Positions 11,173 to 63,439 of a stretch of DNA of 64,000 nucleotides are shown here, piece after piece. The stretch's first letter is position 1, and every line of letters begins with the position of its first letter. A program made the position numbers and the translations under genes. The notes beneath the pieces are model-generated. The model saw only the letters and a list, made by a program, of their open reading frames with translations. It ran no database searches and was not told the DNA's origin. The stretch comes from Terebella lapidaria (Eukaryota > Annelida > Polychaeta > Terebellida > Terebellidae): positions 37,074,165-37,138,164 of the forward strand of contig OX424564.1 in the NCBI GenBank assembly GCA_949152475.1, read 5' to 3'.

Positions 11173-14100
11173 CTGAAAACAACAGAAATTATAAACTTTC
11201 AGACACTGGAATACATCAAGTTATAAAGATAAACTCACAACTCAACATTTGATGTGATTATCTTCTGTACTTTTTCAGGTTTTTTGACAGGCAACATGTC
11301 CCGAGCCATGTTTCAACACACTGCCCATTCCCTACATTGTACTGAGCCATGTTTTACACTATTCCCACTCACCGCCATGTGTAAGCTGAGGCGTTCAGCC
11401 GTCCGGTTGAGATCACAGTTCTGTGTTTGGAGATGCTGACACTGCTCCTGGAGAATTTGCTGCTCCATTCGTGAGCCTGGAACATTGTTAAAAAACATCA
11501 ATTTCTATCACATCTAGTAAACAAGTATCAGTATTTTGAATATACTTTATAATCAACTGGCTGTAAGGTTCCTAGCACTACACGAACCTTCCATATGCCT
11601 CTGGTAAGCCTCAAGGATGGCTTCGATGCCGGGCCAGCGGTAGCCGTCAATGCTGCCATCCATGCGTCTGTCCGTCCCGCTAGGCCCAGGGACACTGGCA
11701 GGGAGGGGCAGGCCACGACTTGGCCCGAGGGGCTGGGTGGACGGTACTGGTGACACCGAGGTCTGCCTCGGAGCCCCATTGTGACCACTCGGCGCACTGC
11801 TCGAATCCTCGTCCATCGTGTAGTGCACCTCCACCGAGGGATTTGGGTTCTGGGCTGTTGGAAGGCAAAGGGTTCAAGTTAGCAGCAGTTTCAAGAAGTA
11901 TTAAACTGCAATTTAACACAGAATGTACTGTTATCGCCGACATGGCAGAAATAATCTACATCACTCATTTCAGAGACATAAATTTACCTCAATACATGCA
12001 TAGAATAATAGGTTTGCCAGAAGGCAAAATAGATTCGGAAGTGTTTGCCTACCATTTTTACTCTGTTGCTGTTGTCTTGTGGTCTGTAGAACAGATTCCA
12101 AGAACTCCTGAGCGAACTCTTTGCCGATGGCACGCCTGGCGTGATCCTTGTCGCCCCCTGATGGCGCTGGCGCTGGGGCCCCTAGCGACGAGAACGCCGA
12201 ACTGCCTGAGGCACTGGGTTTCCATAGCGACTGACTCTTGGGTGGGACTATCACAGGTTTGGCTGGCGTTGATGTGGCCACATGGTTAGCGGGAACTAGT
12301 CCGTGGTTCCGTGGGGCAGAAAGTTCTTTGTTGAGAGACGACAGCATCTCAAGGGGACTGTTCTCGGTTGACGTGTCGAACATCGGCTTCTTGCTGGGGA
12401 CGTCGGAGTCGTCGGCTTTACGTTTGATGGGACTGGGGTAGGCGGGGAGGGGCTGGGGGCGGACCAGGCGGTCATACCACAGAAGGTGACTGTCCATTGA
12501 GAGGCGAGGGAATGGTACGTCCTTCGGGCCTCCGCTCCGTCGCTTACGGTCCCACTCGCAAACCTGATGTATCATCTCCAACTCTGTCGGGGAAAACATA
12601 CAATTCATTATAAACGGTTAAATGATACAATAGTGATCACAGTTGACAAGATATAATACATGGCCATTTCCAGGTTCACAGTGTATTCAAGTCCACTTCA
12701 ATGAGTATGTGTTATACAGTCCCTTGAAAAGGTCACCATATACAGTCACTGGAAGATGTTGCCAATAGAATATTGCCTGATACTTTATGACCACATTTCG
12801 GACATGTGAACGGCATGTCCAAGTTATTTGCCTTGTCTTATTCTCACACACATTTTCGCTGTGCACTCCCTGATATACAGCTCCCAGTCTGGCACAGTTC
12901 AAGGTCATCACAATGTTATATCTAAAATGTTGGCATACAATATTTATAAACAAAACAATTCACTGCCCAAACAAGTAGATGACAGTCTTTCAAAGAGGAG
13001 AGGATGCATCATTGTTGACCAATGGGAGAGTTTTCCTCGGTCTAACGATTTACAAAAGCTGCATATGACTCTATTCACATCTGGCCACTTTCCAAACAAC
13101 AGAGCACCTGTCTACACTGTGTGTACACTGGTGCTAGCACTCTGCTTGAGCGCACACAGAGGCTAATCAACAGCCCTTGTCTACCTCAGCTCTTTTGTCA
13201 TGGCCTTGTTGCTTCATCAACCAGCTTCTGTTTGATTTTATCACTGGGCTGTCTGTTGGCAATTACTGAGTTATCATTTTAAAACATCAACTGCATCACA
13301 TAGTTCTGCCATTTTAAAATGTAAGCAAGCCACAAAAAGCCACTGAATCAGGCTGAGATTTCAAACACAGAATTAACTTTTCCCCCTGGTTCTGAAACAA
13401 CTCAGATGCACAATTTCCAATCTTAAGCTAATCATGCTTCTCAATTGCATGTACAGTGATTCTATTTGGGGTTGACATTTTGTACATATATCTACATTTG
13501 GTGGTGTTTCCACATACACCTGTCAGAGCTTGTGGACTGCTCACCGTGCTGCCGCTGTAGTGGGACGGGCTCGAGGCCGAAGCCATGCAGAAAGCGTCTC
13601 TTGCTGCGGTAGTCTGACTCTGAGTTCAGGTCCTCCGGGTTGACAGTCGATGGCTGCAGCGGACTGCTCCTCGCGACGTCATGAACCTCAATGGGACTGA
13701 CACTCGGCTCTCGGTAAATCCGCCGACGCTTCAACTTGTGCTCAAACTCAGCCTCTGTAAATGTTGGTACATGTTATAGCGTTAGAAAGTTTTTGTTATG
13801 GTAACATACTGTATTCATGTCCTAATCACATTCTTTTCCTTCTGCTATTTTCATTATTTATTACTAAATATTCAGTAACCAATGAACATATGAACATTCG
13901 TGTACAATAGATATTATTTACACACAATGAATCCAAACTAAAAGGCTCCACAGTGTATTCGTCACCATCATCCTGATACCAAGCTACACACAACCGAGCT
14001 CACCTTTTCGGCACTGTTGAGTGGTCAGCCCAAACTGCCCGAGGAAGCCGAGTTTGTGGCGGGATCGGTTGAGTGGGATGGCGGGACCTGACTTGATGAG

Positions 14101-17100
14101 CAGGAGGCGCTGGTGTTTCTCGGAGAGGTCCTCCAGCTCTTCCTCGAGGTCATCCTCAGAGTCACTGTCATCGACCGCGCCCGAGAGTCTCGCCTCCCGT
14201 AGTCGCTGCTCCTCCTGGTCCAGCTTGGAGACCGCAGGCGCGGCGGGGGCGAGGCTGGGGAGCAGCGGGGGCGGAGCCTGGCTCGTCATCAGGCTGTGTA
14301 AGTGGCCGTGGGATGGAGCTACGTCAGGCTTGAGCTTGGCAGGGTCTGGGGCGGAGAGATTCTTGTGAGGGATGGACTTGTCAGGTCTCTCTGGTATGTG
14401 ATGGTGGTGGTGATGGTTGTCGCTATGAGAACGGTCTGACGTTGGCAGAAGTGCAGGGATTGACGGTACCCCCTCTGCTGTCACGGATGAGTGAGATCGT
14501 TTAATGCTGCTGCTGTTATTGGTTCCAGTGAAAGACCGCGGGTGACTCAGATTTTTGTTCGACCACTTGTCGGGATTTATTTTGTTGTTTTCTTGAGCTA
14601 GGGTGCGTTCACTCATCAAGCGACGCTCGAATTCCGAGTAGGATTCCTTCTCGAGCCCATTAACGACCGGAGTCGAGCCCGAGTGCTTGCCTTCAAAGGG
14701 TCTGTGAAACTTTGAGTCAGCCCCCTGTGCCTCGCGCACAAGGGTGGGGTGAGGGGCTGGGACCTTGGGGATGGACAGAGTGACTGGTGACTTGGAGGCA
14801 GGAGACTGGTTGTTGCTATGTTGACTGTAGGGTACAAATCCCTGTGAGCCGTGCGATGTGGAGTGTGTCCGTGACTCCTTCTCGCTGCGATGTCTTGAGC
14901 TGTGTTGTCGACCTTCTCGGTCATGGAGAAGGATGTCTTGTTCTCGCAGAAACTGGAAGAAATGACAGAATTTCCATGTTCATAACGACCAGAATTCAAT
15001 TGAACATTTATCAACATGATCAAATCAGCCATAGAATCACACTTATCGTAACAGTTCGACAGCAGATATAACAGATAACCATATTCTACAACCAACCTTG
15101 TTATGCATTTGCTGCCTCTCCCGTTCCTGCTCCAATATAATATTCCTGGACCCGTTTGTGGCTGTTCCCTCATGTGGACGTCCTCCCACTTCAACACTAT
15201 CCTCTTTCTTGTGTAAGTTTAGCGGCTGATCCTGTGGTTTCTGGAAGCCACTAGCAGTCCTAGGCGGGCTAGCTCTGGGAGCCAGTAATCGCTCAGCGGA
15301 AAAATAACTGGACGAGTCTCTATTCGAAGGTGACACTATGTGGTTAACGAGATGATTTGGATGGCTATAATGGTCCTCCCGTTTGATGCCTGATGAGGAC
15401 GGACTCTTGTTGTGAGCGGGGTGAGCGTCAGTCCCGTGACCCTGGCTATGGCCATGACTGTGACTGTGACCCTGGCTGTGACCGTGGCTGTGACCGTGGC
15501 TGTGACCATGGCTGTGATGCGAGTCGCGGTGCTTCTCGACCGATCTTTCCCGTTCTCGACGCTCTCGTTCCTCGCGTTCCTTTTCGCGTCGGTGCTGCTC
15601 CTCTCGCTCGCGTTCTCTCTCGCGCTCCCTCTCACGCTCCCTGTCACGTTCTCGTTCCCGTTCTTGTTCCCGCCGGTGCTCCTCTGCAGACTTGGGCCTG
15701 CCACACATCACAAACTCCATATTAGTCATGTTTTCATCTATTTCCAAACAAATACAGATTTAGACAATTTAGATATACATTCTTCTGTTTAAGTTATTTA
15801 TACTTTCATACTGAAAGTTCATACCTCATACTGAAAAGTTAACACCTTGGTCATGATAAAATGGAATGAGCCTGTGAATCTCTGTATATAGCATGGTTAC
15901 AAGCACTGACCTTTCTGCAGCTGACCCGGGGGAGGTGTGGTCGGTTGGTTTGGCACCGGCGCCTAGAGAGGCCAGGTAGGAGAGGTGCTGCTGGGTAAGG
16001 AGATCCTGGGGGTATCGGCCCCCGACCGCCGCCAGGTACGGGTGCAGGCCACCTGGGGGCCCCAACATGCCCGGGTGAGGGTACTGGAACATCTGACCTG
16101 CCTGCAACAGTCGGTACCGCTCCAACATCAGCGGGTCCGTCTCCATCCTGATGAGGCGAGAGTAGAGAAATTTCTTTATTTTATGTCATGATTTGTCATA
16201 AGTAAATGTATATGTAAGATATGATATACCTCACCTGTATGCAGGGTGCGGGGAGTAGGGGTTGGGAGGTGCCATCATCCCCTGATACGCCATGGCCGAG
16301 TACAGTGGATCCAGTTGTCCTGGAAATGGTGACGGGAATGGTTGTGCCCCCTGGTGTCTGTTGGTAAGGTCGTCGCCAGGACGATATGGCTGGAATCCCC
16401 GGGCTGCCTCCTCGGCCGAGTGGGGGGTGCCACGAGGGGCCAGACGAGAGTCCATGGCCGCCGCACCTTCCTTAGGGAGGGACGGGTCATCGTCACCACG
16501 AAGACGGTCATGGGGGAGAGATGGCATCGCGGCCATCTTGTCGTGCTCCTGTTTGACAGAAGCGATCGGGTCCTGCGTGGACGAGCTACTCGTCACATCA
16601 GAAGTCTGAAACAGCGAGATGTCAAAATGTTCGTGAGTACACATGGAAACTAATATATCATCGGGTGAATGTCATCGGTATTCACATACTCTTGCTGTCT
16701 ATTGAATACACTGCAAATTTTACATGTATCATGACCTTTTTTATACAGCGATACTGGACACTACAACACATAGACCGGTCTGCCTCACGATGATGCATTA
16801 ACAATATTGCCACGGGGTTACATGACATTAGGTGCATTCTTACATGGTAGCCATGAACAATGACAGGTAACTGTCACCATAGCAACCATGTGACATGACC
16901 AAATGCCTGGATTCTCTTGTGACTGGTTTGATGCATTAGCTGTTCATGTTCAAAACTACCAACTGACCATGAACAGTTCAGCATGATCATGAACTAGAAA
17001 CTGTGTGATTGTAACTTGAACAGCTTTACCCTAGCTCAACACTGCTATCTACTCATAACAGTATCACACTGGCAGACTGGTAACCATGGTAACTGTAATG

Positions 17101-23100: not shown

Positions 23101-26100
23101 CGTAGAATCACAGTATTGACCTCGGAAGTTTTCTGTACCTCTTATCGAAAACATGATTTCTTTGAAAGCAAATGAACCACTAAGCAGGAACAAAGTCTTG
23201 TCATCAAATCTATGACAATCCATACAGATCAATATTAAACAATTTCACGGCATCAATTGTCTGAACCTACTGGTACATGAAAATCAACTACAATGTATGT
23301 TTCCCTTGGAACTGTTGCCAAGGTTACGGCCTGTACATACCCGCCGAGTGTTGAGGTAGGGCCGGTGGGACGGTGTGGGCGCTATGGTAACCACAGGGGT
23401 GGTGCTGGGAGTTGTGGCGACGTGTGCACCCGGAAAGCCGCTGGATGGGGGCGTGGGCTTGCTGCGGGCTAGTTCATGTGTCGACTCTCTAGAGGGCGTG
23501 GCGTGGCTGCTTCCTGTTGATGAGCCTGGGGACGTGTCCAGCACTGCATCGCTGGGATCTGTAAGCGATGGTAACCACAATAGTGGATATAGATAGGCTG
23601 GGAACATTATGACGTACAGGCAAATAGTCATCATAATGCTCAAAACATATGATAACATTGATTAGCAACAGTTTCTCATCATGACGGTTAAAGCGTGTAT
23701 TTTCAGAAGTATTCAGTTATTGTTATCCATGATGTCTGTTTTACCAATCAATCCAGGTGGTGGGGTGGCCGAATCAATTTTCATATAAAATATTTGCATA
23801 AATGTTCTTTGAAAACTAACAAAACTTGACAATGTATACAGTTGAGAAGCCCTTTTTCTCTTGGCAATTTCCAAGAAATTAATTCAATGACCCAAGTGTC
23901 AACAGGACAGTAACATCCAAAATGACAATAGATATGTTAGGATATATATCACTTTATTACACCTTGTGAACATTCAACATTTTTTGTATGTATATCTTCA
24001 CAGGTCTGCCCAATGGGCTCGATCTTACGCAAACAACTAGCGCATAAAAAGTCCATAAAGACTGATGTTTACAATGTGTTATTACAAGAACACTCGAACT
24101 ACGAACCAACGTGACAAAAATACATCAAACGTGGGCCTTCGAGTGAGAGGGTCCAGGGTATGCCAAAGTGGGAAAAAAATTACTGGTCCATTGGACCAGT
24201 AAACATTTCGATATTACCAGCCCAGAGCAATTTTTACTGGCCCAGAATTCATAAGTCACACCCAACAAAATAGTAGAATTGAGATATGCACGGCGATATG
24301 TAGATCCGTTGTAGTATATTAAGCAAATAAATTGACATTGTCAGCTTGAATTGTGCATATTTCCAATCAGCCGTCTTACTGCCCCCAGCCTCAAGCTGAG
24401 GCGTATCATGCTCATGATTTGAAGATCCAAGATCTGGTTGAATAATATATTACTGACAAATGAAATATTTTAATATATTAAAAATTTATTTTACTAGAGT
24501 TATGATATTTTTGCTGATAAAAACTTTCCGGCCACCTGGGCCAGTGAAACTGTTATTATTACCAGCCCAGGATGTTTTTTACCAGTCTTGGGCTGTGGGC
24601 TGGTGACTTTGGCATACCCTGAGAGGGTCAAATGTGCATGAAACGCCTATCAAGGTGGCGTTTAACTCTGAATTTATATCTGTTTGAGCACTATTCTTCG
24701 CAGCAAATAGATGTTTTATGTCCGGCAGTGTGTATGCACGACATGACGAGACCATTTTTACTACACTATTCATCCGAATAAAACAACGGGTGACATCTAA
24801 CCCCCCACCCCCTCCCACCAACATGGGAAACATCAGTGCAAAAAAACAGAATTTATGTAGCTACACGATGCTTCTGCTTGTAATTTATTAAATCCTATCA
24901 TGGCACACTGTCATGCAGGGGGGGGGGGGGGATGTGCAGTCGACAATTGTATGTTGAGCAATAGAAGAGCTACCATATACTGTAAAGCCACAAATTATTC
25001 GTGACCTTTTATTTTCACAAATTTCGCGAATCCAATAAATCGTGAAATTAAATGGACGCACAATATTTCTGATGACAACCCACATTGTTACGAAGAAATT
25101 GTTCAAGACGGCCAAATCGCGAAATTAAATGGCCGAGAACATGGTCTGATCGCAAAAACGCGAAAATTTGCAGCAGCGAACTTTAAAGGGTTTTACAGTA
25201 TGACACAAGCATTAAATGTGCCATATGAGTTACAGCCGTATCTTCGGGAAAAACATGAAATATATAGAAGTGCTGCCCTTTACAAATTCACCAATGAATC
25301 ATTTTTTGTCAACACCCTGTACCTGTGTCGCCAGCCTGTTTTGCGAGTTTTCGGAGGGCTGCGGCAAAACTGGACTGTCTGGTCGCATTGAGGGCTGAGT
25401 TACTGCCCACCGACGTGATGCTGTTGCTAGGCGACGGCTGGTTCAGGGGTGGTACCGTGGCGGTTGTCCGGGTGATGGAGTTGACCATAGCCAGGGGCGA
25501 AGGCTTCACTCCGGAATGAGGAAGTCCTGCAAATAAACATTTTACACATGTACAAACTTTTTGTCGTAATAGAGCCAATACAATGATTTAAAATAATACA
25601 CACAATACACATGATACAATGTTAATCATAATTGTGATCCCCAAATAGGATATTATAGTCAATTAATGATGTTTTAAATGTCTCTTCAGTTTTTTGTTTC
25701 ACGTTTCACAAACACAACACACATGCATTCATGTACCAACATTGTGATAACTACATTGTATTGTACCCATTGCTCTGGTCATTAACAATGTAAGAAGACA
25801 CCCAAGAATCCATCCGTCGGAACAATCAGGACAACGTTCTTGTGAAAACTACCTGGGCTTTAACAACCTCCCATTTATGAAATATACAGTGTGATTCTGA
25901 TAAAACTTGCGTACATAAATAGAGCAGAGATAACAGGCAATATGCTCTGTGCTGCGTCACAAAGATCAGGCAGATATAATTCATGAGCAACCTGTTATGT
26001 CGCTTCCCCCGCAGACATAGGAGTACATCAATTGTAACAATATTTGCATGGCATGGGGAATATCGACTTCCCCGGAATATCTACTCAACTGTTCCTATTA

Positions 26101-41100: not shown

Positions 41101-44100
41101 GTTTACCATTGGGAACATGTCTGGTTTATTTTGAATATTATTTCAGGAAAGAAATGCTGTATGACAATTGCACAACTTAGATGAACAGTGTACGCTTTTG
41201 TTCGCTAAATTAGATTTATTTATAAACATGACAGAGCCACCCCAGCAAGTGTGAAAACCAGCTGACTGAAGTACATACTTGACAAAACTATGCATAATTT
41301 GCAAATAAATTTTGTCCAGTGGTCACACGATTTTAAAGTTGTGGTCGCCAAGGTATGATAAAAGTGCATGCTTGATGTCATCTACATGATATAAACAAGA
41401 AGTCACGACATCATTTTCCAGTGAAGAGACAAGGATGTGCTAAGGATGATTTTTATGACAAATTTTACCTCAGTACTGTAGAAACACAAGCCTATATTTT
41501 TTTTTTGAAGCAATCAATGTTGACAAGCACCCTCCAGATTCTACCCAATCACATCAAATGATCCAGTCGACACTTACCGGGTGCCGTGGGTAACCCAGGT
41601 GGGTAGTACTGGGGCAGGCCGAAGGGTGGGTAGCCTGGGTAACCACTGACCGGGACCCCTCCTGGGCCCCCAAGCCCCCCACCAGGGCCCCCTCCTAGCA
41701 GATTGTTGATGGACATCGGTCAACGTGGCTAATCCTCTTTTAGAGGAGATCTGAGGTCAATCGTCATTTGCATCGCAGCTGATATCCCAGAAAAATGTAT
41801 CCACCAACGTGTGATTTCACTGAAGAAACGTCTGTATCCAAATAGTAAAATATATGTGTATCCTCAGAAGTGAATTTTGGAAGAGTATGAAGCGATAGTA
41901 AGTAGTCGAAGCTTAGTTGACCCGTGGGTCACCAGTGCTCAAACACACGTCCCAGGATGATGTTGTCAGCTACCATCTCTGTTAGCCCCGACTTGAACAA
42001 ACAAATCATTCCGTGCTCAGAAATCATCTGTTGATTGTGCCCAAAATAGCCGATTAATATGGCCCTGTATTGAGGAAGCTTTCTAAGCTATTGATCAAAC
42101 GAACAACTCAAGCCTTCAGGCCACTCAGTAGATATGACACATGTATTCGAGGTAAAGGTTTCCAGTGGCCATGTTCACATTAGCCAATCAGAGCGGTCAA
42201 GTCGTTCTAACAACGATTTATTCACAATCAGATGGTCTGGTTTCACGGAGCGCGGACACTTCAAGGCTGCGGGTCCCTTGTGCTCACTCAGCGGCTGGAC
42301 AGACGAGGGTGCTCAGTCACAATGTATCGGGCCTGACAGCGAATCCATTTAATATAGCACCCGACGATAAATCATCTGCTGGAGTGATCTTGAACCAAGA
42401 TGGCCCCTAAATGTCCTCGAGTGATCGACGCACATCGGGTCCAAGTCACACATAAATGTCAGTGTGACAGTTAGCGCCACTAACGGCTCTGTGAGTTGGG
42501 GGAGGGAGAGGCACCAGGTTGGTTTTTGTGTTTACTTCTGGGAAAGCCAGCAAGTTACGAGTAGGTCCAGTTTGTTGACAAGCGTGTATGTCATCTCCGT
42601 TAGATCACAGGTGGCCTTTGTGTGCGGCTGACAGAGCAACGGTTCACAAGGTCATGGCTCCCTCACTGCCGTATTGTCCAAGGCAGTCACTGGAACATGA
42701 CGTGGCAGCATAAATATCCTAAGCATAAGTATCCTTTCGCAACATGTGCCTAATTGTGAACATCTATGGCTTGAAACGGTTCATCAAAGGTGTTCTTTGT
42801 TCAGTGTCAAAGCGCAGGCAGGGGCCGTGAGAGACGATAGAACCACCGTCGGGTATCAGCGGAGATCAAGAGTGTCTCGCGAGGGCCATAGTCAGCTCAC
42901 TCGAGGGAGGGTCCACGGCGTCTCAGCGGGTCACAAGGGTCGCGGTGCTGGCGTCTTGCCTCACAGACTGTGGGAGGTCATCAACTTGTAACACCGGCTC
43001 CCAGTGATGGCGTCCGTCTCTGGTCTCCTATCAGAGCATTCGCTAATGTTGTTCTTGGCAGTCAGAACACGGTCTACACTTGTGCTCACGTTCACGCTTT
43101 GCTGAGGTGGTGTTTGCATCAAATCCACTGTTTACCAACCTAAGCTCTCCTAGAAGCAATAGAGATCCACCTCTTGTGAACTAAAACTCGTAAAAGACAG
43201 CCCTGTATGATACAGCAATGATACGTACATGTAGAGTATCCGTCCAGGAAATCTCTCATTCTGACTCACAACTTGTCGTGTTTTGCCACTGTTTGTTGAT
43301 CTGCGTGGTTCCATGCAGGCGTGATGGCCCAAATTGACAGCGGCACTTGATAAAATCCACAGGAGCCCTCCAAAAACTGTTTGGACTTACCAAGTAATCC
43401 ACTAGAATCCACGGCAACCAAGTTTGTTGAAGGGGGATGGTTGTGTTGCGTAATACAAAGTGGTCGTTGTTTAGATGCTGGTGTACTGCTGCAAGTAGGT
43501 GTGGGCCTGTATCAGATGCTGTTACTCTGCTGCTGGCCTGGAGGTTTCCATAGTCACCCTGCTGATGTAGCTTTATCCCCATCAACCACATAGATATCAC
43601 ACGGCTGGGTTATCGCCCGGGTTATCTGGCAGGTCACAACCACTCAATCACACGGCACACGCTTCCTACTCAGACGATTTATCCACTCACTGCTGAGCTA
43701 CACACAAACACGCCGCGGCGGCTATCCTGATTACTGCACACTGGTGTTCACGGTGTTTACGATCCCGCCACGGTTCTCCGTCATCCCTGGAGCATCACGT
43801 GTAAACACACCGTGCTGAACGGTGCACTCACTGCATCAGTTACCACTGAATCCAGCCATTAATTCACACACAAAAGCGGCTGATAGTCGACTAGACCTCG
43901 TGTGACACCTCGATCTGAGGCATGTTTGTCTGGCGCACGATGCACTTGATCAATACTGTGTGTGAGACTCGCCTCTGCCTGCCCCTCCGTCCGTCCGTCC
44001 ATCCATCAGTCAGCAATGCTAGGTACATCTGTTAAAGCTGTCAATAATCCGGTGGCCGGGATGACTGTGATTATGACGCTGGCTGTTATGATAGGACAGA

Positions 44101-50100: not shown

Positions 50101-53100
50101 TGTATGAGACTGACCGACAGTGTGTCTCGTGTATCATATACATTGAATCTCTGATACTGGCCTGACATGTGTCATTTATTGCAGACTGTGACACTGACAA
50201 ACACTGACATTCTGACACTGACCTGGCAAGTGTCGCTCTATTTCCGCATGATCTTACACTGACAGAAACTAACAATCTGACACTGACATTGACAGACACT
50301 GAAATTCTGACACTGACATGTGTCATTCAATCTCGTCATGCTCTTACACTGACAGACACTGACATTGACATTGACAGACACTTGACATTCTGACACTGAC
50401 ACTCTGACACCAATACTGACATTGCCAGACAATTGACATTCTGACAATGACACTCTGACACCAATACTGACATTGACAGACACTTGACATTCTGACACCG
50501 ACCTGGCAAGTGTCGCTCTATTTCCGCGTGCTCTTACACTGACAGAAACTAACAATCTGACAATGACATTGACAGACACTGAAATTCTGACACTGACCTG
50601 TGTCATTCAATCACCTCATGCTCTTACACTGACAGACATGACACTGACATCGACAGACACTTGACATTCTGACACTGACACTCTGACACCAATACTGACA
50701 TTGACAGACACAGACACCTGACATTCTGACACTGACACTCTGACACTGACCTGGCGTGTGTCGCTCGCTCTCCTCGTGTTCTGACATGGACTCAACATCG
50801 ACGTCGACCGACGTACACCCGCTGTCAGACTCGCTGACCTGGCTGCAGCGAGCTTTCTCCGGCTGCGATTCTTCATAGTCCTGGTCCTGGGGAAAAATGT
50901 CAGAAGCTTACATTCAACGATTCACTGTCAACCAAGAGACTTGCCTTTACCAAGTATTCAGCTGTACTTGCAAAATACACATCGTTTTGTATACACCTGG
51001 TACATACCAATATTGTTACCAAGTGAATAATTGTAACCCTGGGTAATACATGTAAATGTAAATTGAACAACAACCAGTCATGACTCACAACTTTTCTGGA
51101 AAACACACCAGAAGCATGTGCTATTATCCACAGACGAACGCACAGACGAACACAAACAGTCAAACACCATTCAAACCATGGTTTTACATGTTTACCTGAA
51201 AGAGCTGATCCACAATAACTTGATGGAGGTTTATATTCCCCATCGGTCAGCCTCTATGTGTATTGGTCAGTGCTTTAGTTGAATCATGTTATCCTCTATA
51301 ATTTTCCTGCACCTGATATAATCATAATTTTTCAGCATGGTCATATTTGTCGAGCCATCTCCCAATAACAAGTCTATAACTTGCCATTTATTAGTCCACT
51401 CCGTTGATTCGCATGAGAAGTTGGTTCAGGAAATCAAAGTTTTATTCTGTGCCTTATACGATATGGTACGGTATCCTCTTTTCATAAATATGGCACATGA
51501 AGCAAAGCCAATTCCTGGTCGGGTTATGACGGGCATGACAGTCATCAAAAATAGTCCGGTATTTTTTCGTGCACTTTCATCTTAGGCTAAAAGCATTGTG
51601 TTTGCTGAAACAAGTGACTGTGGCTGATGTGATGTCAGTAGGCAGGACATCCCCAAAAAAAACGAGCGAGATAAAAATATGAAAATGCACAAAGTGTCTT
51701 TTCATGACGCTCAGTTTTTTTTTGTGCATGTGAGAAAGAATGAGAAAGCTGAGTGCACCTAGGTTAATTCTTTCCCCTGCTCAACACTGAAACTGCTATC
51801 TTCCTCCAGGTTCAGACAGAAAAATTTCGAGAAAATATTTCTGCATTTTTCCATGAACTGCGGAAGTTGTAATTCTCGATAAGCAAATGGCCCAGTTTTT
51901 CCTCTACATGAATTCAGGGGCCTATACATGTATAATTGCCTCTTGTCTGTCACTATCAGAGTCTATTCAGGTCATCCGGATTAAAAACTTGTCAGTTTTC
52001 ATCACGATTATTAGAATACACGCATTAGATGTACATCATATTTGTACGTTCTATGCAAGGACATCAATCATGCTTCGCTATTCATCACATTTCTTATCTT
52101 GATCCATCATTATAAATGTCCTCTTCATATTTAACGATTAAATTTCACATCCTTGATCAAGTTGATCCTATGCAATTTCATAAATGCTTCAGATTGAGTT
52201 CCTCATTAAGTCAGCATGTGTTCAAAGTGTTATATAGTATCACTGATTTACTCCGGCAGAGAATGTGAAGTATACGCAGAGTATCATGGAGAAACACCCA
52301 CTTCCCAAGTTACATTTAAACCGTTGTAAGTTCAAAGCGCTATTATCATACGACAAGGCGTGTCAACGTTTGCATTGGTAACATTATGCCGCAACCAACA
52401 CATACACACGCACACATGCATACGTATGCACAGATATTTTTTTAGCCTTTTTTTTCTCGCATTGACTACACACAATCGAGAGCCAACAGCCGATGAAAAA
52501 ACTAACTACAGGTGTAGTAACAGAAGAAAAATGTCAAAAAGACGAAAATAGACCAAAGGACAGACAAAACCGAGGATAAAAACTGGGTCAGAAATTGAAG
52601 TTTCACGCGGGCACGCTGCCGAAGCACCAGTTAGTACTGGCGGGCGTGCGAGCAGACAGACCTTCGATTGAAGATACAATGTCAGGAATCCACCTACGCC
52701 TGGCCTGTCCGTGCACCCGGCCATGGCCATAGCGACAAACAAGTGGCCTCGGCTGCTATCAGGCATACAGTGGGGTGTTAACAGCCAGCAGTGCTTCGTG
52801 TGTATACATAGCTCGTTAACACCTTGATCGAAATGATCACTGCATGTCCACGTGCTGGTGTTTTTTCCCTGTTTTTTTCTTTCCCCCCCCCCCCCCCCCC
52901 TTCTTTCAGTCAATCTGGCGCTTGCTTTAGAATGAGGCCATTGATTATTTCCTGAATGACATGCAAAACAAACTTGTCTATCTGTATTGTCATCCTTGTT
53001 CCATGCTGTTCCAAGTGATGAGTTTGTCTGCTATGACAAGTCTGTACGGGTCACAACGGTAACGGTACACTTCCCCATCTCGGCATTGATGCAGGATCCA

Positions 53101-59100: not shown

Positions 59101-62100
59101 ATTAATTACTGCAGTTATATATATGAAAAGTTACGGTTTTGTAGTGGCTTGCAAAGTTTTCCTGTCGAGATTTCAATCCCGCTTGCCATCCAATTAATTA
59201 TTCATCAGGCTATACGAGGCACGCTAAGCCAACGACCAGTCGGCCCTGCGCAGAAACTTCTGGGCATCGGCATAACTTCGAGACGGATCCTATTTCTACA
59301 CAATTTAGATATTCAATGCGGTAAACAGTGGTAAAACACATCTGACCGTTCGGCAGACCTGACTCCTCTCCTCGCCCCCCCCCCCCCCCCGCCCCGCGGC
59401 CACTGGCCAGCCGACGTCTTCACTGGTAAGAGGTGCATGGGGGGGGGGGGGGGGGGGCTATCGGTAGGCGAAGCCTGGCTCGCAGGACTACTTCCTGGAA
59501 GTAGAGCGAACACGAAAGGGGCCACACGTCATCGCATTTGGCCTACTTGATATACCAGCACTCGCCACAAATTTTCAATTTTTATGTTGCCGTATCAACT
59601 TGTTTTTCGTTTTTGCAACAGCATACTGTATCTATATATTGTGCGGAATGTATATCCAAAACTTTGAGCGCATATGATTGCAAGAAAGCACTGTTTCAGT
59701 GAAGATCAAAACGGGATTGGTGATGGGTATGAGACGGTGACATACAAAAAAAAACAAACGGTCGGAACACACGTCTCCTGGGATTATTATCGCTAATAAC
59801 TTATTACATTAACCGTGATTAGGTACACGGGCGTCATTTTCCTCCCAACGGGCCCCGGGCCCTCCCAATTAGCCACAGTTGAATGGCCTGTTGTGGTTCC
59901 AAGTGGCACTTTCAAGAATGTAAACAAAGGGAAAATTTCAAAAATCCAAAAAAAACCAACATCATAGAGGAAGAGCTCTGCTCTTCCTAAAAAGGAGCAT
60001 GTTAAGACCAACAGTTTTGATCATTTCCATGGTAACACAGAATTTGATTGAATTTCGTTGTGCCAGAGTCAACTAATACACCATTTTGCAGTGTGATGAA
60101 TGTCATTTAATTTCAGAGATAGATTTTTTTGTGATGTTTGTTTTACATGGCAACTAACTAGCGAAGGTTACCAAGGTAAACCCCATTAGTATCTACAATA
60201 CGGTATTTACAATATTTGAGAAGTTATTGTGTGGTGTTTTGAAATGTTTTTATCGGTTATCTAGCAATTTCTACAGGCGATCCATGTTACACATTCACAT
60301 GTTGCCATGGTTACAACCATATGCGTGATAATGCGCACAAACTTGCACTGATTTGCCGACAAACTCACAACTGTCTAAAGATAAAATATTGAAAAATTCA
60401 TGTATGTAACTACATTATTAACAATTTTATGATCAAATTCCTGAAACTTTTTGAACAGCCCTCGTACATGTATGTAATGTTAATTGTTAATTTGTTATAC
60501 ACACGTCACATATGGCAAGACAGTGCAATCATGCTGTGTGCACAAGGCAGCGTTTGTCAGCAAACATGAAAGATGGCAAACGTTGTAGGCATACATGTAT
60601 AAACACGATGTTGGAGCTTATATTATAATGAAGACCATCAGTCTTGCAGATCTGAAACACCTGATATCAAACTGATATATCGTTTACAAAGAAATTCCGA
60701 TTGTAAAGCAGCCAGACTTATGAATACGCAAGAGACTGTTCTTTCAAACCCAGACAGTTGGTAATCAGTGCCACCTGGTGATCGACTGAACAATTAGCCC
60801 TGGTCACGATAAACAAATGCAGAGAAAGCAGAGAAAAAACAAAAATCAAAGATTTCAAGGTGCTGTTGACTTGCGATAAAAAAATTCAAGTGTTGATACA
60901 GATCATGTTCATGAATGTGAATCATGTGTTTACCTGTCAAAAACATATGGTCCCACTACCCCATGTCTTGGATCATGTGGATGTATCTCTGACCATGGCA
61001 AGTACACTTGACGAGTAGTAGACCTCTATACTAGTAATAGTGCAATTCACTGCTATTGATAGTACACTTGTACGTACACTGCATGTTTGGGACAATCAGA
61101 AAAAGGTTACAAAGTCAAGAGTCAGAGAGTACATGTACATCACTGGGATATATACATTGATCACTGAATCTGAGTCAGTGAGCATTTACTAGTAAACCCA
61201 AAGTGCACCCACTGGCTTGAATTTTCTTTGTGTTTGCAGTACGAAGCCGATGGGCATCAGTCACTAACTCACCATCGAGCATCAACTAAAACTTGCTACA
61301 GGTCTATGGACTGAAATTTTTCTAGATGGATGTTGAGTAGTTTTGCCAATTGTAGAGTCTGATATATATAAGCAACATAATCAGTATTCGATCCAACCAT
61401 TCAGACATACATACATGTACTCACGGACGCTACTGGTCACAAACAACATACACAATATTTCACAAAGCATATCACCAAATGTATTCCATACACCAACGAA
61501 CCTGCAATACTTCCTGCTTGACCTGTACTGGTTCACTGCTCCCCTCGCTCTCCAGGCTCCCTCTAGTGTCCGTTTTCTTACTCGACCCTCCATCTCTCCC
61601 CGCACCCTGCACTCGGTCAGAGCTCACAGACACTTTTCTCTGGTTCTCTTTGACCTGTTCTGCCTCTGTCCCTTGTTTGGACGCCCCACTCACGCTGTCC
61701 TGAGTCTGGCACATTGAGCTTAAAGTCTCCGCTGCGGCCAGGCGAGGGTCCGGCTCCGTGGCATCCGCCGGCGCAGGGTACGGATATCCCGGCATGGGAA
61801 AAACCGGGTAACCGGAGAGTGCCAAGCCCGGGTAGCTGGTGGGCGGGAGGTTCCCCGAGGGTGGGACCATGTAGTGTGCAGGAGAAGCTATCGCTAGGAG
61901 ACCGTTCTGGGAACCACCAGTGCTACTTGAGGACAAACTGGAGATTGAGTGGCTCTGCTTGGACTTTGTCACCTTCGTGCTAGACGCAGCCGTCGAGATG
62001 ACGATGTTCAGAGGTTTGGGACTCTGGTTGACCTCGGTTTTGACCTTGATCGGTGTGGCACTTGCTCCAGGTGTTGGTTCCCTGGCATACTGAGGTTTCT

Positions 62101-63439
62101 TCTCGCCTGGGGTGGTACCCGGTTCAGGTTGGTCTGACATCGGACGTAGCAGGAACTGACGATGAGTCATTGGCGTGTTGGAGCTCTGATAGAACTGCCA
62201 TTGACGCTGCAGGTAGCTGTAGCATGCTCGGCAGCACAGGGCTCGATTCTCAGCATCCAGGGGACTTGATCCAGGTGGCCGCTTGAGGCTCTGGACAAAA
62301 GGGAAATACATGGAGTGTTTGCTGTGTTCCCCTGGAGCCTGAGTGTAGAGCAGTCGCATGCAGGCTCTGAGGTTACCCTGACCACACAGGTAGCAGATCT
62401 CTTCTGTTGTGGGTGGTTTCGTATCTGGCGGGGCTGCTATTTCAAGATTGGACATCTGCACATGCTGGGATCTTGCCATGGCTGCACTAATGTCAGTGAT
62501 CGCTACCCCATTGATTGAGTAGGTTCTCTGGGGCTCTCCAATGTTGTTGGACTCAAAAACTCGCCACTGCTGTCGAAGTGTTTTGTGGCACATGTAGCAG
62601 ACACGAGTGAGGCCATTCCTGTTGATGGGCATGCTCCCTGGAGGCTCAGGCAGTGTCTCTAGTATTGGAAAGAATGGTTCGTCTTCTGTTCCACTTGGTC
62701 GTGTGTAGATATAGCGCAGAGCGAAGTGGGGAAAGCTCTTACAACACACATAACAAGTCATCTTGGCTTGCTCTTGGCTCTCATCTTTTGATTTCTCACG
62801 TTGGTCTTTCCTGGACCGAGGCTTCTCACTAGGAACTCTCACATTACCCTTGGACACATTGCTTGTGGCTGCAGACAGGTCCAGAGCTCCACTGCTATCT
62901 AATACAGGGACAGGTCGTGCAGCAACCTTGGATGATTTCTGTGCCTTGGGGGTGACATTAACCGGTGTTGGAGTTTGCTGAAAGGTCGGTTCCACAGCTT
63001 GACCTCTCGGCAGTCCCGAGGAACAACTGAAGGCACTTGACCCCTGAGATCTGGATCCCTGCGGATGTTCCAACCACATCATCTGTGCGACGTACTCTCC
63101 CTGGACCCGCATCTCTGCTCCTGTGAAGGCACCATTGTCGTTCCGCTTCAGCCAGTACAACCGCTTGATGGCTGGTGTCTTGGACCGCTCATACGAGTCC
63201 CATTGCTGATTGAGGAATGCGTAGCAGACTCGGCACGAGTCCACACGTCCACTGGTGTCAATGGGCCGGGTGCCCTTTGGGGGGTCATGGGTCTCCAAGA
63301 AAGGGAAGTACGATCCCTTGCTCCTGGGACGAATGTGCAGGTAGCTGTCAGCTCCATTGCTTCCACATACATAACACACACCTGAAGGTAACATCCTGGC
63401 AGTGGCTTGAATCCACGTCTGGCGATGATGGATAGGAAA
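11077..63439 (-). CDS. GSE1: Genetic suppressor element 1 (GSE1), 5' end outside the window
   Basis: GSE1 is a coiled-coil chromatin protein, known in vertebrates as a partner of the CoREST/LSD1/HDAC corepressor. Coding exons, 5' to 3' on the minus strand, are 63439-61502, 50886-50751, [41716-41578 alternative first], 25526-25323, 23558-23341, 16605-16235, 16147-15911, 15697-15097, 14952-14004, 13754-13545, 12583-12053, 11854-11588, 11476-11373 and 11172-11077. Every junction keeps frame. The family is recognised by RTTATV, SSFAAALRKLAKQA, TPVVTIAP, FQPYRPGDDL, HPAYRM, the long RE-rich helix, FGLTTQQ and the C-terminal coiled coil. The short form is 1308 aa, close to the roughly 1200 aa of human GSE1. 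The long form is at least 1953 aa and has a large N-terminal cysteine-module region. No break was seen in any exon. Confidence 0.94.
11373..11476 (-). CDS. GSE1: GSE1 shared exon 10 (coiled coil)
   Basis: The exon is 104 nt from acceptor tgttccag to donor gtgagt, entering in phase 1 and leaving in phase 0. It encodes MEQQILQEQCQHLQTQNCDL, with heptad spacing of Ile, Leu and Cys typical of a coiled coil. Confidence 0.92.
11588..11854 (-). CDS. GSE1: GSE1 shared exon 9
   Basis: The exon is 267 nt from acceptor cttccaacag to donor gttcgt, phase 1 at both ends. It encodes QNPNPSVEVHYTMDEDSS, a Pro-rich linker, then WPGIEAILEAYQRHMEG. The gttcgt donor is unusual but is also used by the 61502 exon. 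Confidence 0.91.
12053..12583 (-). CDS. GSE1: GSE1 shared exon 8
   Basis: The exon is 531 nt from acceptor ccgacag to donor gtaggc, phase 1 at both ends. It encodes ELEMIHQVCEWDRKRR, then a KRKADDSDVPSKK basic patch, a Ser/Pro/Ala-rich linker and a helical AIGKEFAQEFLESVLQTTRQ with a short Gln run. The helix probably begins the conserved C-terminal GSE1 region. Confidence 0.93.
12584..13544. other. GSE1 intron between exons 7 and 8; no gene seen
   Basis: This 961-nt intron holds only short chance open frames and no recognisable repeat. Confidence 0.6.
13545..13754 (-). CDS. GSE1: GSE1 shared exon 7
   Basis: The exon is 210 nt from acceptor catttacag to donor gtgagc, phase 1 at both ends. 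It encodes EAEFEHKLKRRRIYREPSVSP, a basic nuclear-localisation-like cluster, followed by SESDYRSKRRFLHGFGLEPV. A weaker donor (gtgtat) 26 nt downstream was rejected because it breaks the frame of the next exon. Confidence 0.92.
14004..14952 (-). CDS. GSE1: GSE1 shared exon 6 (largest shared exon)
   Basis: The exon is 949 nt from acceptor tttcttccag to donor gtgagc, entering in phase 0 and leaving in phase 1. It encodes FLREQDILLHDREGRQ, a long Ser/Pro/His-rich disordered stretch with a short His run, an acidic DSDSEDDLEEELEDL helix, and KLGFLGQFGLTTQQCRK. The FGLTTQQ word is shared with vertebrate GSE1. Confidence 0.95.
15097..15697 (-). CDS. GSE1: GSE1 shared exon 5 (RE-rich helix and His-Gly repeat)
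   Basis: The exon is 601 nt from acceptor gtgtggcag to donor gttggt, entering in phase 2 and leaving in phase 0. After RPKSAEEHRREQ comes a roughly 45-residue run of alternating Arg and Glu, a charged single helix that is the hallmark of GSE1. It is followed by an (HSHG)n-type histidine repeat and then QDQPLNLHKKED, a CtBP-like PLNL motif. It ends in ERERQQMHNK. Confidence 0.95.
15911..16147 (-). CDS. GSE1: GSE1 shared exon 4
   Basis: The exon is 237 nt from acceptor cctcatcag to donor gtcagt, phase 2 at both ends. It encodes METDPLMLERYRLLQAG and a Pro/Gly/Tyr stretch GGLHPYLAAVGGRYPQDLL, aligning with the LHPSAMHLHLSGVRYPPEL area of vertebrate GSE1. Confidence 0.94.
16235..16605 (-). CDS. 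GSE1: GSE1 shared exon 3
   Basis: The exon is 371 nt from acceptor ctgtttcag to donor gtgagg, entering in phase 0 and leaving in phase 2. It encodes ASVKQEHDK (a VKQE sumoylation-type site), GFQPYRPGDDL and NPYSPHPAYR, which parallel FRPYHTTDDL and PHPAFR in human GSE1. Confidence 0.94.
16606..23340. other. GSE1 intron, 6.7 kb, mostly unique sequence
   Basis: No coding exon is supported. Unlike other introns it has few recognisable mobile elements. It carries G-runs at 19794-19806 and 22447-22466, a (CATC)n microsatellite near 21490-21512 and two CTCF-like words at 23028 and 23081. The relatively GC-rich 18-22 kb part could be regulatory. Confidence 0.5.
23028..23095 (+). promoter_or_regulatory. 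Pair of CTCF-like motifs (candidate)
   Basis: CACTAGGTGGCAGCA occurs at 23028-23042 and again at 23081-23095 in the same orientation, 53 bp apart. The core matches the CTCF consensus (CCASYAGRKGGCR). Binding is inferred only. Confidence 0.35.
23341..23558 (-). CDS. GSE1: GSE1 shared exon 2
   Basis: The exon is 218 nt between acceptor cgcttacag and donor gtatgt. It encodes a Ser/Thr/Pro-rich stretch ending TTPSTTPVVTIAPTPSH, matching the PPVVTIAPT word of vertebrate GSE1. It enters in phase 1 and leaves in phase 0. Confidence 0.93.
24154..24621. mobile_element. hAT-type MITE with exact 8-bp target duplication
   Basis: Terminal inverted repeats CAGGGTATGCCAAAGT match exactly over 16 bp at both ends. 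The element is flanked by AGAGGGTC at 24146-24153 and 24622-24629. An 8-bp duplication and a CAGGG start are typical of hAT elements. The inside repeats ACTGGYCCA-type words in both orientations and has no coding frame, so it is non-autonomous. Perfect flanks suggest a fairly recent insertion. Confidence 0.88.
24980..25198. mobile_element. Short TA-target MITE (Tc1/mariner type)
   Basis: The ends CTGTAAAGCC and GGTTTTACAG are near-complementary and TA flanks both sides. The inside is rich in CGCGAA, TTCGTGA and CGAAATT words, a pattern common in small invertebrate MITEs. It lies in the GSE1 intron 124 bp from exon 25323-25526. Confidence 0.6.
25323..25526 (-). CDS. GSE1: GSE1 shared exon 1 (FAAALRKLAKQ region)
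   Basis: Acceptor tttatttgcag and donor gtacag bound 204 nt, entering and leaving in phase 1. It encodes SITRTTATVPPLNQPSPSNS and SSFAAALRKLAKQA, the clearest N-terminal signature of vertebrate GSE1. Both alternative 5' modules splice to this acceptor. Confidence 0.95.
25527..33118. other. GSE1 intron, proximal part; no gene seen
   Basis: This 7.6-kb stretch has no supported exon. It holds a C17 run (28701-28717), a C15 run (29796-29810) and many short chance frames. Parts near 27.3-28.6 and 31.5-32.5 kb are richer in CG and could hold promoters or enhancers, but nothing specific is seen. Confidence 0.5.
34080..36240 (-). mobile_element. Degenerate L2/CR1-like LINE inside the 5.6-kb element
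   Basis: Reading the minus strand there is, in order, an endonuclease part (RRIDVLAITE at about 36.1 kb; LIIAGDFSLHVDD at about 35.75 kb), a reverse transcriptase part with FHFYADD at about 34.53 kb and ENRLELNNDKTEF at about 34.43 kb, and a C-terminal HWLPIGQRI word at about 34.28 kb. The parts lie in different frames with stops, so it is inactive. The YADD box and HWLP word fit the L2/CR1 group. A 137-bp tandem duplication sits within it. Confidence 0.75.
35308..35581. repeat. 137-bp tandem duplication, near-identical
   Basis: Positions 35308-35444 are repeated at 35445-35581 with no difference that I could see. This is either a very recent duplication or an assembly join error. Confidence 0.85.
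38683..41577. other. GSE1 intron between the 5.6-kb element and the short first exon
   Basis: No gene is supported. The longest open frame (39617-40054, 145 codons, + strand) has no recognisable motif and no splice context, so it is treated as chance. Confidence 0.5.
41578..41716 (-). CDS. GSE1: GSE1 alternative first coding exon (short form)
   Basis: The ATG at 41716 opens MSINNLLGGGPGGG, followed by a Gly/Pro/Tyr-rich segment (GYPGYPPFGLPQYYPPG). The exon ends with a strong donor gtaagt in phase 1, matching the 25526 acceptor so that PG joins LPHSGV. The composition is far more GC-rich than the flanks. It gives a 1308-aa protein, comparable to vertebrate GSE1, and implies a promoter upstream on the minus strand (41.7-44 kb). 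Confidence 0.8.
41717..46362. other. Candidate promoter region of short GSE1 and flanking intron
   Basis: The region upstream of the 41716 start (minus strand) is moderately GC-rich between about 42.1 and 44.7 kb, which fits a promoter area, but I see no core promoter. It has a (CCGT)n/(CCAT)n microsatellite near 43988-44010 and a GT plus G17 tract at 44945-44978. Open frames are chance. Confidence 0.4.
43391..43600 (-). other. Possible noncoding 5' exon of short GSE1
   Basis: A strong donor TTG|gtaagt lies at the 43391/43390 boundary on the minus strand, upstream of the short first coding exon. No start codon in frame with GSE1 is implied. The exon start is undefined, and the acceptor it would use before 41716 is unclear. 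Confidence 0.2.
46363..46410 (-). CDS. GSE1: Candidate 48-nt GSE1 cassette microexon
   Basis: A strong pyrimidine tract ending ctctgccag precedes the 48 nt, and donor gtcagc follows. Entering in phase 1 it reads VPRMIDDSKPRPLNLE and leaves in phase 1, so it could be included or skipped between the 50751 exon and the 25526 exon without changing frame. The PRPLNL word echoes QPLNL in a later GSE1 exon. It is too short for homology to be judged. Confidence 0.45.
46411..47409. other. GSE1 intron; no gene seen
   Basis: Only short chance frames are present. The first 40 bases are the pyrimidine tract of the candidate microexon. Confidence 0.5.
47410..47825. repeat. 16-bp minisatellite
   Basis: About 25 copies of a 16-bp unit of the form CCCTGATGACCGTCTG occur, with variants (TGACTATC, TGGCCG, TCTATCCCATGA). 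Because 16 is not a multiple of three, all frames read open for long stretches and cycle through the same 16 residues. It is not a gene. Confidence 0.9.
47826..50159. other. GSE1 intron; no gene seen
   Basis: A CTCF-like word lies at 48852. Open frames at 49335-49709 and 49734-50165 lack motifs and splice context. Confidence 0.5.
48852..48866 (+). promoter_or_regulatory. CTCF-like motif (candidate)
   Basis: CCCTAGGTGGCGCTA is a close match to the CTCF core. A related word read on the minus strand occurs at 45594-45608 (AGGGGGCACTAGG). Confidence 0.3.
50160..50750. repeat. TGACACTGACA minisatellite with 280-bp higher-order unit, abutting a GSE1 donor
   Basis: Short CTGACACTGACATTGACAGA-like units are organised into a higher-order repeat of 280 bp (for example 50281-50360 against 50561-50640). 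Each higher-order unit also contains degraded copies of the end of the adjacent GSE1 exon (GACCTGGCAAGTGTCGCTC at 50222 and 50502; related words at 50318 and 50598). On the GSE1 strand these give repeated GTCAGTG and GTAAGAGC donor-like words. Confidence 0.85.
50751..50886 (-). CDS. GSE1: GSE1 long-form second visible exon
   Basis: The exon is 136 nt with acceptor ttttccccag and donor gtcagt, entering in phase 0 and leaving in phase 1. It encodes DQDYEESQPEKARCSQ followed by an acidic, serine-rich stretch (DSGCTSVDVDVESMSEHEE). Phase 0 matches the end of the 61502 exon and phase 1 matches the 25526 acceptor. Its donor directly abuts a minisatellite built partly from copies of this exon end. 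Confidence is lower than for the shared exons because no homologue is recalled. Confidence 0.72.
50887..55323. other. Long-form GSE1 intron, proximal part
   Basis: No exon is supported. It includes a C18 run (52883-52900), the CTCF-like pair at 53.5 kb and two overlapping minus-strand frames at 54698-55048 that look faintly protein-like but match nothing I recognise. Confidence 0.45.
53511..53577 (+). promoter_or_regulatory. Second pair of CTCF-like motifs (candidate)
   Basis: AACAGATGGCAGCAC at 53511 and CCCTAGGTGGCAGCAC at 53562 are in the same orientation, 52 bp apart, almost the same spacing as the pair at 23.0 kb. The first is a weaker match. Confidence 0.3.
55324..57885. mobile_element. 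Terminal-repeat-bounded element with a 147-bp satellite core
   Basis: The left end carries hairpin words ending AGGCATTTCGG (55342-55352). The right end has the hairpin AAGGCATTTCTGCCGAAATG (57859-57878), whose reverse complement matches that word. Between them lie 12 tandem units plus degenerate copies, then a unique segment and a poly(A) tract (57805-57840). The layout resembles MITE-like elements with internal satellites described in bivalves and other invertebrates, but I do not assign a family. Confidence 0.7.
55380..57160. repeat. 147-bp tandem satellite, 12 units
   Basis: The word CCCTTAGACA recurs at 55441, 55582, 55729, 55876, 56023, 56170, 56317, 56464, 56611, 56776, 56923 and 57070. 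Spacing is 147 bp except for one 6-bp deletion and one 18-bp duplication. Units differ by only a few bases. Most contain CAAGGTCAAAGTTCATCC, a DR1-type nuclear receptor motif. A diverged thirteenth unit lies near 57380-57470. Confidence 0.95.
58317..60464. mobile_element. Mariner-like element with about 185-bp terminal inverted repeats, no transposase
   Basis: The left end CGAGGGCTGTTCAAGAAGTT and the right end (reverse complement CGAGGGCTGTTCAAAAAGTT) are flanked by TA. Inverted similarity continues to about 58500 on the left and 60275 on the right. The CGAGGGCTGTTCAAAAAGT start is typical of mariner-group elements. The inside has no DDE transposase frame; it is a mix of unique sequence with a C16 run (59375-59390) facing a G19 run (59439-59457). 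Confidence 0.75.
60465..61501. other. Long-form GSE1 intron, distal part; no gene seen
   Basis: Only chance frames are present. A CTCF-like word on the minus strand lies at 60766-60781. Confidence 0.5.
61502..63439 (-). CDS. GSE1: GSE1 long-form exon with three paired-CxxC modules
   Basis: This 1938-nt exon (646 codons, phase 0 at both ends) has acceptor ttttacag and donor gttcgt. It encodes three copies of a module at about exon residues 22-99, 229-305 and 349-425. Each has CYxC, then a conserved [YF]FP[FI][LV] with a following PPxG/S and P[IL][DN], then CxxC[YH] and L-x-[QR]QW. Four cysteines per copy suggest a zinc-binding fold. The linkers are low-complexity, rich in Ser, Pro and Lys, and include ALDLS (a CtBP-like motif) and two VKxE sumoylation-type sites. 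The C-terminal third has a PGYP/GYPVFP proline-tyrosine stretch. I do not recognise the module in named families. Assignment to GSE1 rests on phase-perfect splicing to 50886 and then 25526. The initiating Met must lie in an upstream exon beyond the window. Confidence 0.8.

Follow-up and report, generated by a model that had tools for sequence, protein, structure and literature searches.

GSE1 is a subunit of the LSD1-CoREST-HDAC complex, and two reports describe it as a component of CoREST/HDAC1 in mammalian cells (PMC10681733, PMC12143397). In the portions of the literature consulted no structured targeting domain is described for GSE1, no N-terminal cysteine-rich region of the protein appears among the matches listed (titles and the openings of abstracts, with partial coverage of the literature), and no paper in the literature searched brings GSE1 and PhyloCSF together. 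Among solved zinc domains, one of the nearest to the module described below is the ZAD, which is described as a domain of 71–97 amino acids with two cysteine pairs about 50 amino acids apart and a long α2 helix (PMC5509000). ZADs are described as protein-interaction and homodimerization domains, not DNA-binding ones (PMC5509000, PMC7655104), and the surface of the Grauzone ZAD is negatively charged (PMC5509000).

The window, meaning the whole 64,000-nucleotide stretch of Terebella lapidaria DNA that was analysed, contains a GSE1 gene on its minus strand and, upstream of the conserved part of that gene, a 646-codon exon with three copies of a paired-CxxC module (Table 1). From sequence, predicted models and analogy, we consider it an even call whether the locus encodes a long GSE1 in which treble-clef-like zinc modules would form an N-terminal docking or self-association arm.

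Table 1. Coordinates of the features discussed, given as window positions.
Feature	Position	Strand	Basis or remark
Module exon, 646 codons	61502..63439	-	Open frame, splice-site score
Candidate start codon Met16 (context AGGATGT, with A at -3), assuming an untranslated upstream exon	63392..63394	-	Inference
Module 1, exon residues 22-99	63143..63376	-	CxxC positions, pairwise scores, alignment
Module 2, exon residues 229-305	62525..62755	-	CxxC positions, pairwise scores, alignment
Module 3, exon residues 349-425	62165..62395	-	CxxC positions, pairwise scores, alignment
ALDLS, residue 185, possible CtBP-type short motif in the linker of modules 1-2	62873..62887	-	Motif scan
SUMO-consensus-like VKTE, residue 466	62033..62044	-	Motif scan
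Second SUMO-consensus-like motif VKQE, residue 640	61522..61511	-	Motif scan
Putative bridging exon of 136 nt, entry phase 0, exit phase 1, DQDYEESQPEKARCSQVSESDSGCTSVDVDVESMSEHEESERHTP	50751..50886	-	Gap scan
Possible alternative first exon MSINNLLGGGPGGG..., ATG and in-frame stop just upstream, strong phase-1 donor GTAAGT	41578..41716	-
Conserved GSE1 N-terminal exon SITRTTATVPPL...SFAAALRKLAKQA, phase-1 acceptor, 3' edge tentative	25323..25526	-
Open frame with PF12540 match	13984..14979	-	Pieces about 14235..14005 and 13758..13573

The identity of the downstream gene as GSE1, which the first-pass annotation had named, is borne out by profile searches. The frame 14979..13984 matches PF12540 (DUF3736/GSE1) with 44 bits against a cut-off of 22.6, and genome-wide this family has two matches only (45.2 and 25 bits), both above the cut-off and both within the window's GSE1. 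The exon beginning at 25526 (TRTTATV...FAAALRKLAKQA) encodes what we take to be the conserved N terminus of vertebrate, including human, GSE1. Vertebrate GSE1 therefore resembles the gene in the window in its PF12540 exons and, presumably, in this N-terminal exon; the window's gene would differ in the additional upstream 646-codon exon with its three modules. A further GSE1 exon at 15043-15759 (minus strand) encodes an R/E-rich segment, then HSHG runs and the motif QPLNLH, the last possibly CtBP-like.

The module exon (63439..61502) is a single open frame of 1,938 nt without a stop, flanked by an AG acceptor and a GT donor (simple consensus scores of 4.3 and 1.4, respectively) and in phase 0 on entry and on exit. 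Between 26000 and 61400, open runs on the minus strand reach 174 codons at most. A rival acceptor at 63323, inside module 1, has a slightly higher simple exon score (191.8 versus 189.6 for 63439). Position 63439 was preferred as the tentative 5' edge, since both other copies share the first CxxC of module 1. Over the 60 kb upstream, the higher-scoring exon candidates resemble retroelements by eye, and the best nearby candidate that does not (68644..68462) scores 16.9, under the simulated maximum; translation may therefore begin at Met16 (63394), a candidate start. The cysteines of the exon are concentrated in the modules, which hold 15 of the 17. The share of Pro, Ser, Thr, Gly and Gln is 0.36-0.50 in the linkers and 0.32-0.35 in the modules, and the linkers, to judge from this composition, may be disordered. 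Two putative SUMO-type motifs (VKTE and VKQE) and a putative CtBP-type motif (ALDLS) lie in the exon.

The six CxxC motifs of the exon start at residues 22, 69, 229, 281, 349 and 403, and thereby delimit three modules of 77-78 residues, with approximate edges, in which the cysteine pairs are separated by 43, 48 and 50 residues. Local BLOSUM62 scores between the modules are 115 (1 versus 2), 151 (1 versus 3) and 132 (2 versus 3), compared with a mean of about 25-26 (s.d. 4.3-4.9) for shuffled controls, none of which, in 1,000 shuffles, equalled the score of any module pair. The three diverged paired-CxxC copies proposed at these residues in the first-pass annotation were thus recovered where expected. 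In a MAFFT alignment of the three modules (A1), all copies agree at 14 columns: C, Y, C, F, P, P, G, P, C, C, L, Q, W and R. The motif that had been written PPxG/S is present, with the qualification that the copies read PPKG, PPGS and PPGS. The modules are mildly basic, with net charges of +6, +2 and +6. We regard the three as ancient tandem duplicates of one module, a judgement that stands or falls at the same even weight as the long-GSE1 reading of which it is part.

Searches of the 762-Mb host genome with modules 1, 2 and 3 and with the full exon gave no further credible copy. With module 1 as the query, a protein search of this whole genome returned the module itself and modules 2 (E = 1.9e-6) and 3 (E = 2.6e-10) only. 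The rows that were discarded across these searches all contained internal stops; one, from the full-exon search (E = 6.84), lay outside the modules, and three, from the search with module 3, had E values of 2.99 to 8.2. In the prokaryotic genomes, the module pattern gave 34 pattern matches and no relatives.

No named domain was found for the module in Pfam, NCBIfam or the PDB sequences, in keeping with the earlier claim that it is unrecognised. Pfam returned only sub-threshold matches to the whole exon (DUF3570, E = 0.11; PLATZ, E = 0.29) and, for the three modules at E ≤ 10, three weak matches to unrelated families, one per module, in searches in which the HMMER filters drop most weak matches. 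NCBIfam gave nothing for the module exon, and the PDB gave nothing when searched with single sequences. The A1 profile had two weak matches in the PDB, to squalene synthase (E = 0.6) and to the ZAD of ZNF276 (PDB entry 7ppp; E = 0.63), the latter spanning both cysteine pairs.

Structures were predicted with AlphaFold2 from an input alignment of three rows only. The best model of module 1 has a pLDDT of 69.6 and a pTM of 0.61, with one of the five models reasonable, and the best model of module 3 (model 2) has a pLDDT of 78.8 and a pTM of 0.70, with one to two of the five reasonable. In both, a long helix is predicted at the second CxxC (residues 61-77 in module 1, with Cys 60 and Cys 63; residues 64-79 in module 3, with Cys 63 and Cys 66). 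Foldseek returned 51 PDB matches for model 1, with the HNH nickase 4h9d first and thymidine kinase chains at ranks 2 to 5, and 40 for model 2, again with 4h9d at the top; there was no match at E ≤ 0.001 for either model in the PDB or for model 2 in the viral set. The small zinc-binding fold that had been expected agrees with the predicted models in outline, and no structural match at that threshold accompanies it. The ZAD and HNH domains have a treble-clef arrangement in common, which makes a treble-clef-like zinc module the shared denominator of the two, and the models suggest that this is what the module is. In such a fold, the two CxxC pairs of each module would hold one zinc ion, and the chain would run from a zinc knuckle through a short β-hairpin and a short helix around FP..L to a long helix beginning at the second CxxC, on which the L..QW residues lie.

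The modules resemble the ZAD (PF07776) in size, in the spacing of the cysteine pairs (43-50 residues) and, in the predicted models of modules 1 and 3, in having strands followed, from the second cysteine pair onward, by a long helix equivalent to the long α2. Their position in GSE1 is likely N-terminal. They differ from it in occurring as three copies, in the signature FP..L, PPxG and L..QW, and in standing without C2H2 fingers, no C2H2 family having been found in the four GSE1 frames scanned; they are also basic, whereas the Grauzone ZAD (PDB entry 1pzw) is acidic. In profile–profile comparison (hhalign), A1 scores 31.3 against the Grauzone and ZNF276 pair, a score that neither the 200 cysteine-keeping nor the 200 full column shuffles reached, with gap-free columns only being shuffled. 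Against ZNF276 alone the score is 33.1 (P = 8e-6; none of 100 cysteine-keeping shuffles reach it), a P value that is about what selection alone yields, as ZNF276 was chosen from 177,635 sequences. Against Grauzone alone the score is at noise (12.9, with a shuffle mean of 12.6; 40 of 100 shuffles reach it), and nine other zinc-domain controls, each represented by a single sequence, have hhalign scores that are reached by 7 to 85 of 100 shuffles. The zf-AD profile (PF07776) matches none of the three modules at E ≤ 10, with filters that drop most weak matches, and does not match the whole exon at E ≤ 1. Among the Foldseek matches of model 1, the ZAD chains 6fp5 and 1pzw stand at rank 6 (E = 0.83) and rank 12 (E = 1.9), with TM scores of at most 0.34; the 40 matches of model 2 include no ZAD.

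We do not call the module a ZAD, given that none of its matches, by profile or by structure, reaches significance and that none of the three copies is picked up by the zf-AD profile. That the modules genuinely belong to the ZAD family and were captured by GSE1 is a stronger claim, compatible with the docking-arm explanation, and one we hold to be doubtful: the agreement in size, spacing and helix, the ZNF276 match across both cysteine pairs and the two ZAD chains among the structural matches of model 1 speak for it, and the failure of the zf-AD profile, the lack of a C2H2 family in the frames scanned, the noise-level score of Grauzone and the ZAD-free matches of model 2 speak against it. The module perhaps works like a ZAD, as judged from its sequence and models, and membership is not claimed.

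A search of the host genome yielded no ZNF276-like ZAD that could serve as an unselected test. The one match it gave lay inside a tandem satellite and was set aside as chance. By eye, locus L042 is a repetitive, tandem-like array with frames open on both strands. The zf-AD profile gave 17 matches in the host genome, none above the cut-off. Three of these loci were inspected (L008, L024 and L010), and both of those with long frames are RAG1-like: L008 (586-1827, minus strand) and L024 (670-1800, minus strand) match the RAG1 importin-binding family PF12560 with E values of 9e-9 and 2e-7, and their sequences would fit either RAG1-like genes or transposon relics in the host invertebrate. The N-terminal region of RAG1 shares paired CxxC motifs with the modules, and also scores weakly with zf-AD. 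Its comparison with the GSE1 modules is near noise, the score being reached by 6, 1 and 4 of 100 shuffles for the pair, L008 and L024, respectively.

Some treble clefs, GATA among them, are DNA-binding, and the modules, being mildly basic, may bind DNA. The reading of the modules as DNA- or histone-binding readers, raised in the first-pass annotation, nevertheless appears unlikely. It draws on the net charges given above and on GSE1 being a chromatin-complex protein (PMC10681733). Against it, the modules show no likeness above shuffles to GATA, nuclear-receptor, PHD or CXXC domains (one sequence each), their invariant residues are mostly the aromatic, Pro, Gly and Cys residues typical of a core, and PZP/PHD structures occur among the matches of model 2 only at E values above 1. 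The searches turned up nothing in favour of a reader in particular, the nearest solved domains being the ZAD, which serves protein interaction, and HNH treble clefs.

The module exon is separated from 25526 by 36 kb. This gap was scanned for exon-like segments with a score composed of acceptor, donor and codon terms, the codon model being trained on the other exon frames only. The top segment, 50886..50751, scored 36.8 and the next-best 16.8. When rescored (37.8), it lay above everything obtained when the gap was simulated 60 times with an order-3 Markov model, the best simulated value being 24.4 in any phase; the opposite-strand control gave a best score of 27.1 in any phase and of 14.5 in the required phase pair. 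The phases of the segment fit both neighbours, the junction codon with 25526 is GGA, and the joined frame is open. On this evidence the module exon is probably part of GSE1, and the long form proposed at the outset gains an inferred connection through the bridging exon. By eye, the stretch of about 50100-50750 (minus strand) that adjoins the bridging exon downstream is repetitive, with SVSV and CQCQ runs.

Other splice forms are possible. A direct splice from 61502 to 25526 was rejected because it would shift the frame, a phase-0 donor meeting an acceptor that needs a phase-1 donor; two phase-1 donors within the module exon, at 61582 and 61606, would each permit a direct splice to 25526. The candidate first exon at 41716..41578 would yield a short GSE1 without the modules.

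That the module exon is part of a gene of its own, on the GSE1 strand and upstream of GSE1, with its end at the in-frame stop shortly past 61502 or at another site, is in our estimate quite unlikely. The frame does remain open beyond the donor at 61502, itself weak (1.4), to a stop at about 61472, and GSE1 may own a first exon at 41716..41578. However, the well-scoring bridging exon fits the phases exactly, the internal donors at 61582 and 61606 would even allow a direct splice, and in the 3 kb past the stop the closest AATAAA, at 58568, is 2.9 kb distant and the closest ATTAAA, at 60111, is 1.4 kb distant.

The HNH treble clef (4h9d and phage HNH) shares with the predicted module a CxxC knuckle, a hairpin and a helix from the second CxxC; the modules differ from it in having no conserved catalytic His, Asn or Asp, and the sequence likeness is confined to the CYxCG knuckle. 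In viral contigs, the module pattern gave 62 pattern matches and two 'relatives', read by eye as phage HNH genes, whose knuckles score 34.7 and 32.6 against A1 in hhalign, on a level with the ZAD comparison, over just 14-15 columns and were likewise pre-selected. An HNH origin and nuclease activity were rejected because conserved catalytic residues are missing. Descent from an HNH nuclease with loss of catalysis is very improbable, despite 4h9d leading the PDB matches of both models, 22 HNH-named structures among the best 50 of 117 viral-set matches of model 2 and the knuckle common to the two phage genes, since no structural match reaches E ≤ 0.001, the likeness surrounds a knuckle selected by the search pattern itself, none of the 14 invariant columns of A1 is His, Asp, Asn or Glu, and HNH is not among the three weak Pfam matches of the modules at E ≤ 10 (most weak matches being dropped by the filters).

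In the preferred reading, that of a long GSE1 with a docking arm, the 646-codon exon would be the first large coding exon of the long form, and the zinc-stabilised modules would constitute a multivalent N-terminal arm for protein docking or self-association. Such an arm would link partner regulators to the body of GSE1, in mammals a known CoREST/HDAC subunit, and the SUMO- and CtBP-like motifs of the linkers would reinforce repression. A bolder version, which we put forward tentatively and at less than an even chance, is that the modules represent an undescribed treble-clef family serving as a multivalent CoREST/HDAC docking arm, and that mammalian GSE1 is the shorter half of an ancestral protein whose long form has been lost or left unannotated. 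The locus suggests an unrecognised way for the GSE1 silencing complex to grip its partners. If true, the triple N-terminal zinc module would offer a concrete surface for the recruitment or oligomerisation of GSE1 and would prompt one to ask if the vertebrate GSE1 that has been studied represents a short isoform; if the likeness to the ZAD is real, the ZAD would extend beyond C2H2 zinc-finger transcription factors.

Several other features were observed in the window and the genome. The window contains a reverse transcriptase frame at 3314-4411 on the plus strand (PF00078, E = 6.8e-13). Upstream of the window, and in its numbering, retroelement-like frames were seen by eye at about 72 kb (L025), 76-81 kb (L026) and 117-118 kb (L030), and an exon resembling a Rab GTPase, also by eye, at 84.7 kb (L027). 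In the mitochondrial cox1, on contig C438, AGA occurs in frame seven times, a codon that the vertebrate code reads as a stop; the gene makes good sense, judged against known cox1 sequences, when AGA is translated as Ser, ATA as Met and AAA as Lys. This marks the host as an invertebrate, probably other than an echinoderm, and its sequence may be lophotrochozoan. A second cox1-like match (G000:C417:44633-46450) lies in two pieces, with TGA read through, and its sequence would be consistent with a nuclear copy or with another organelle genome.
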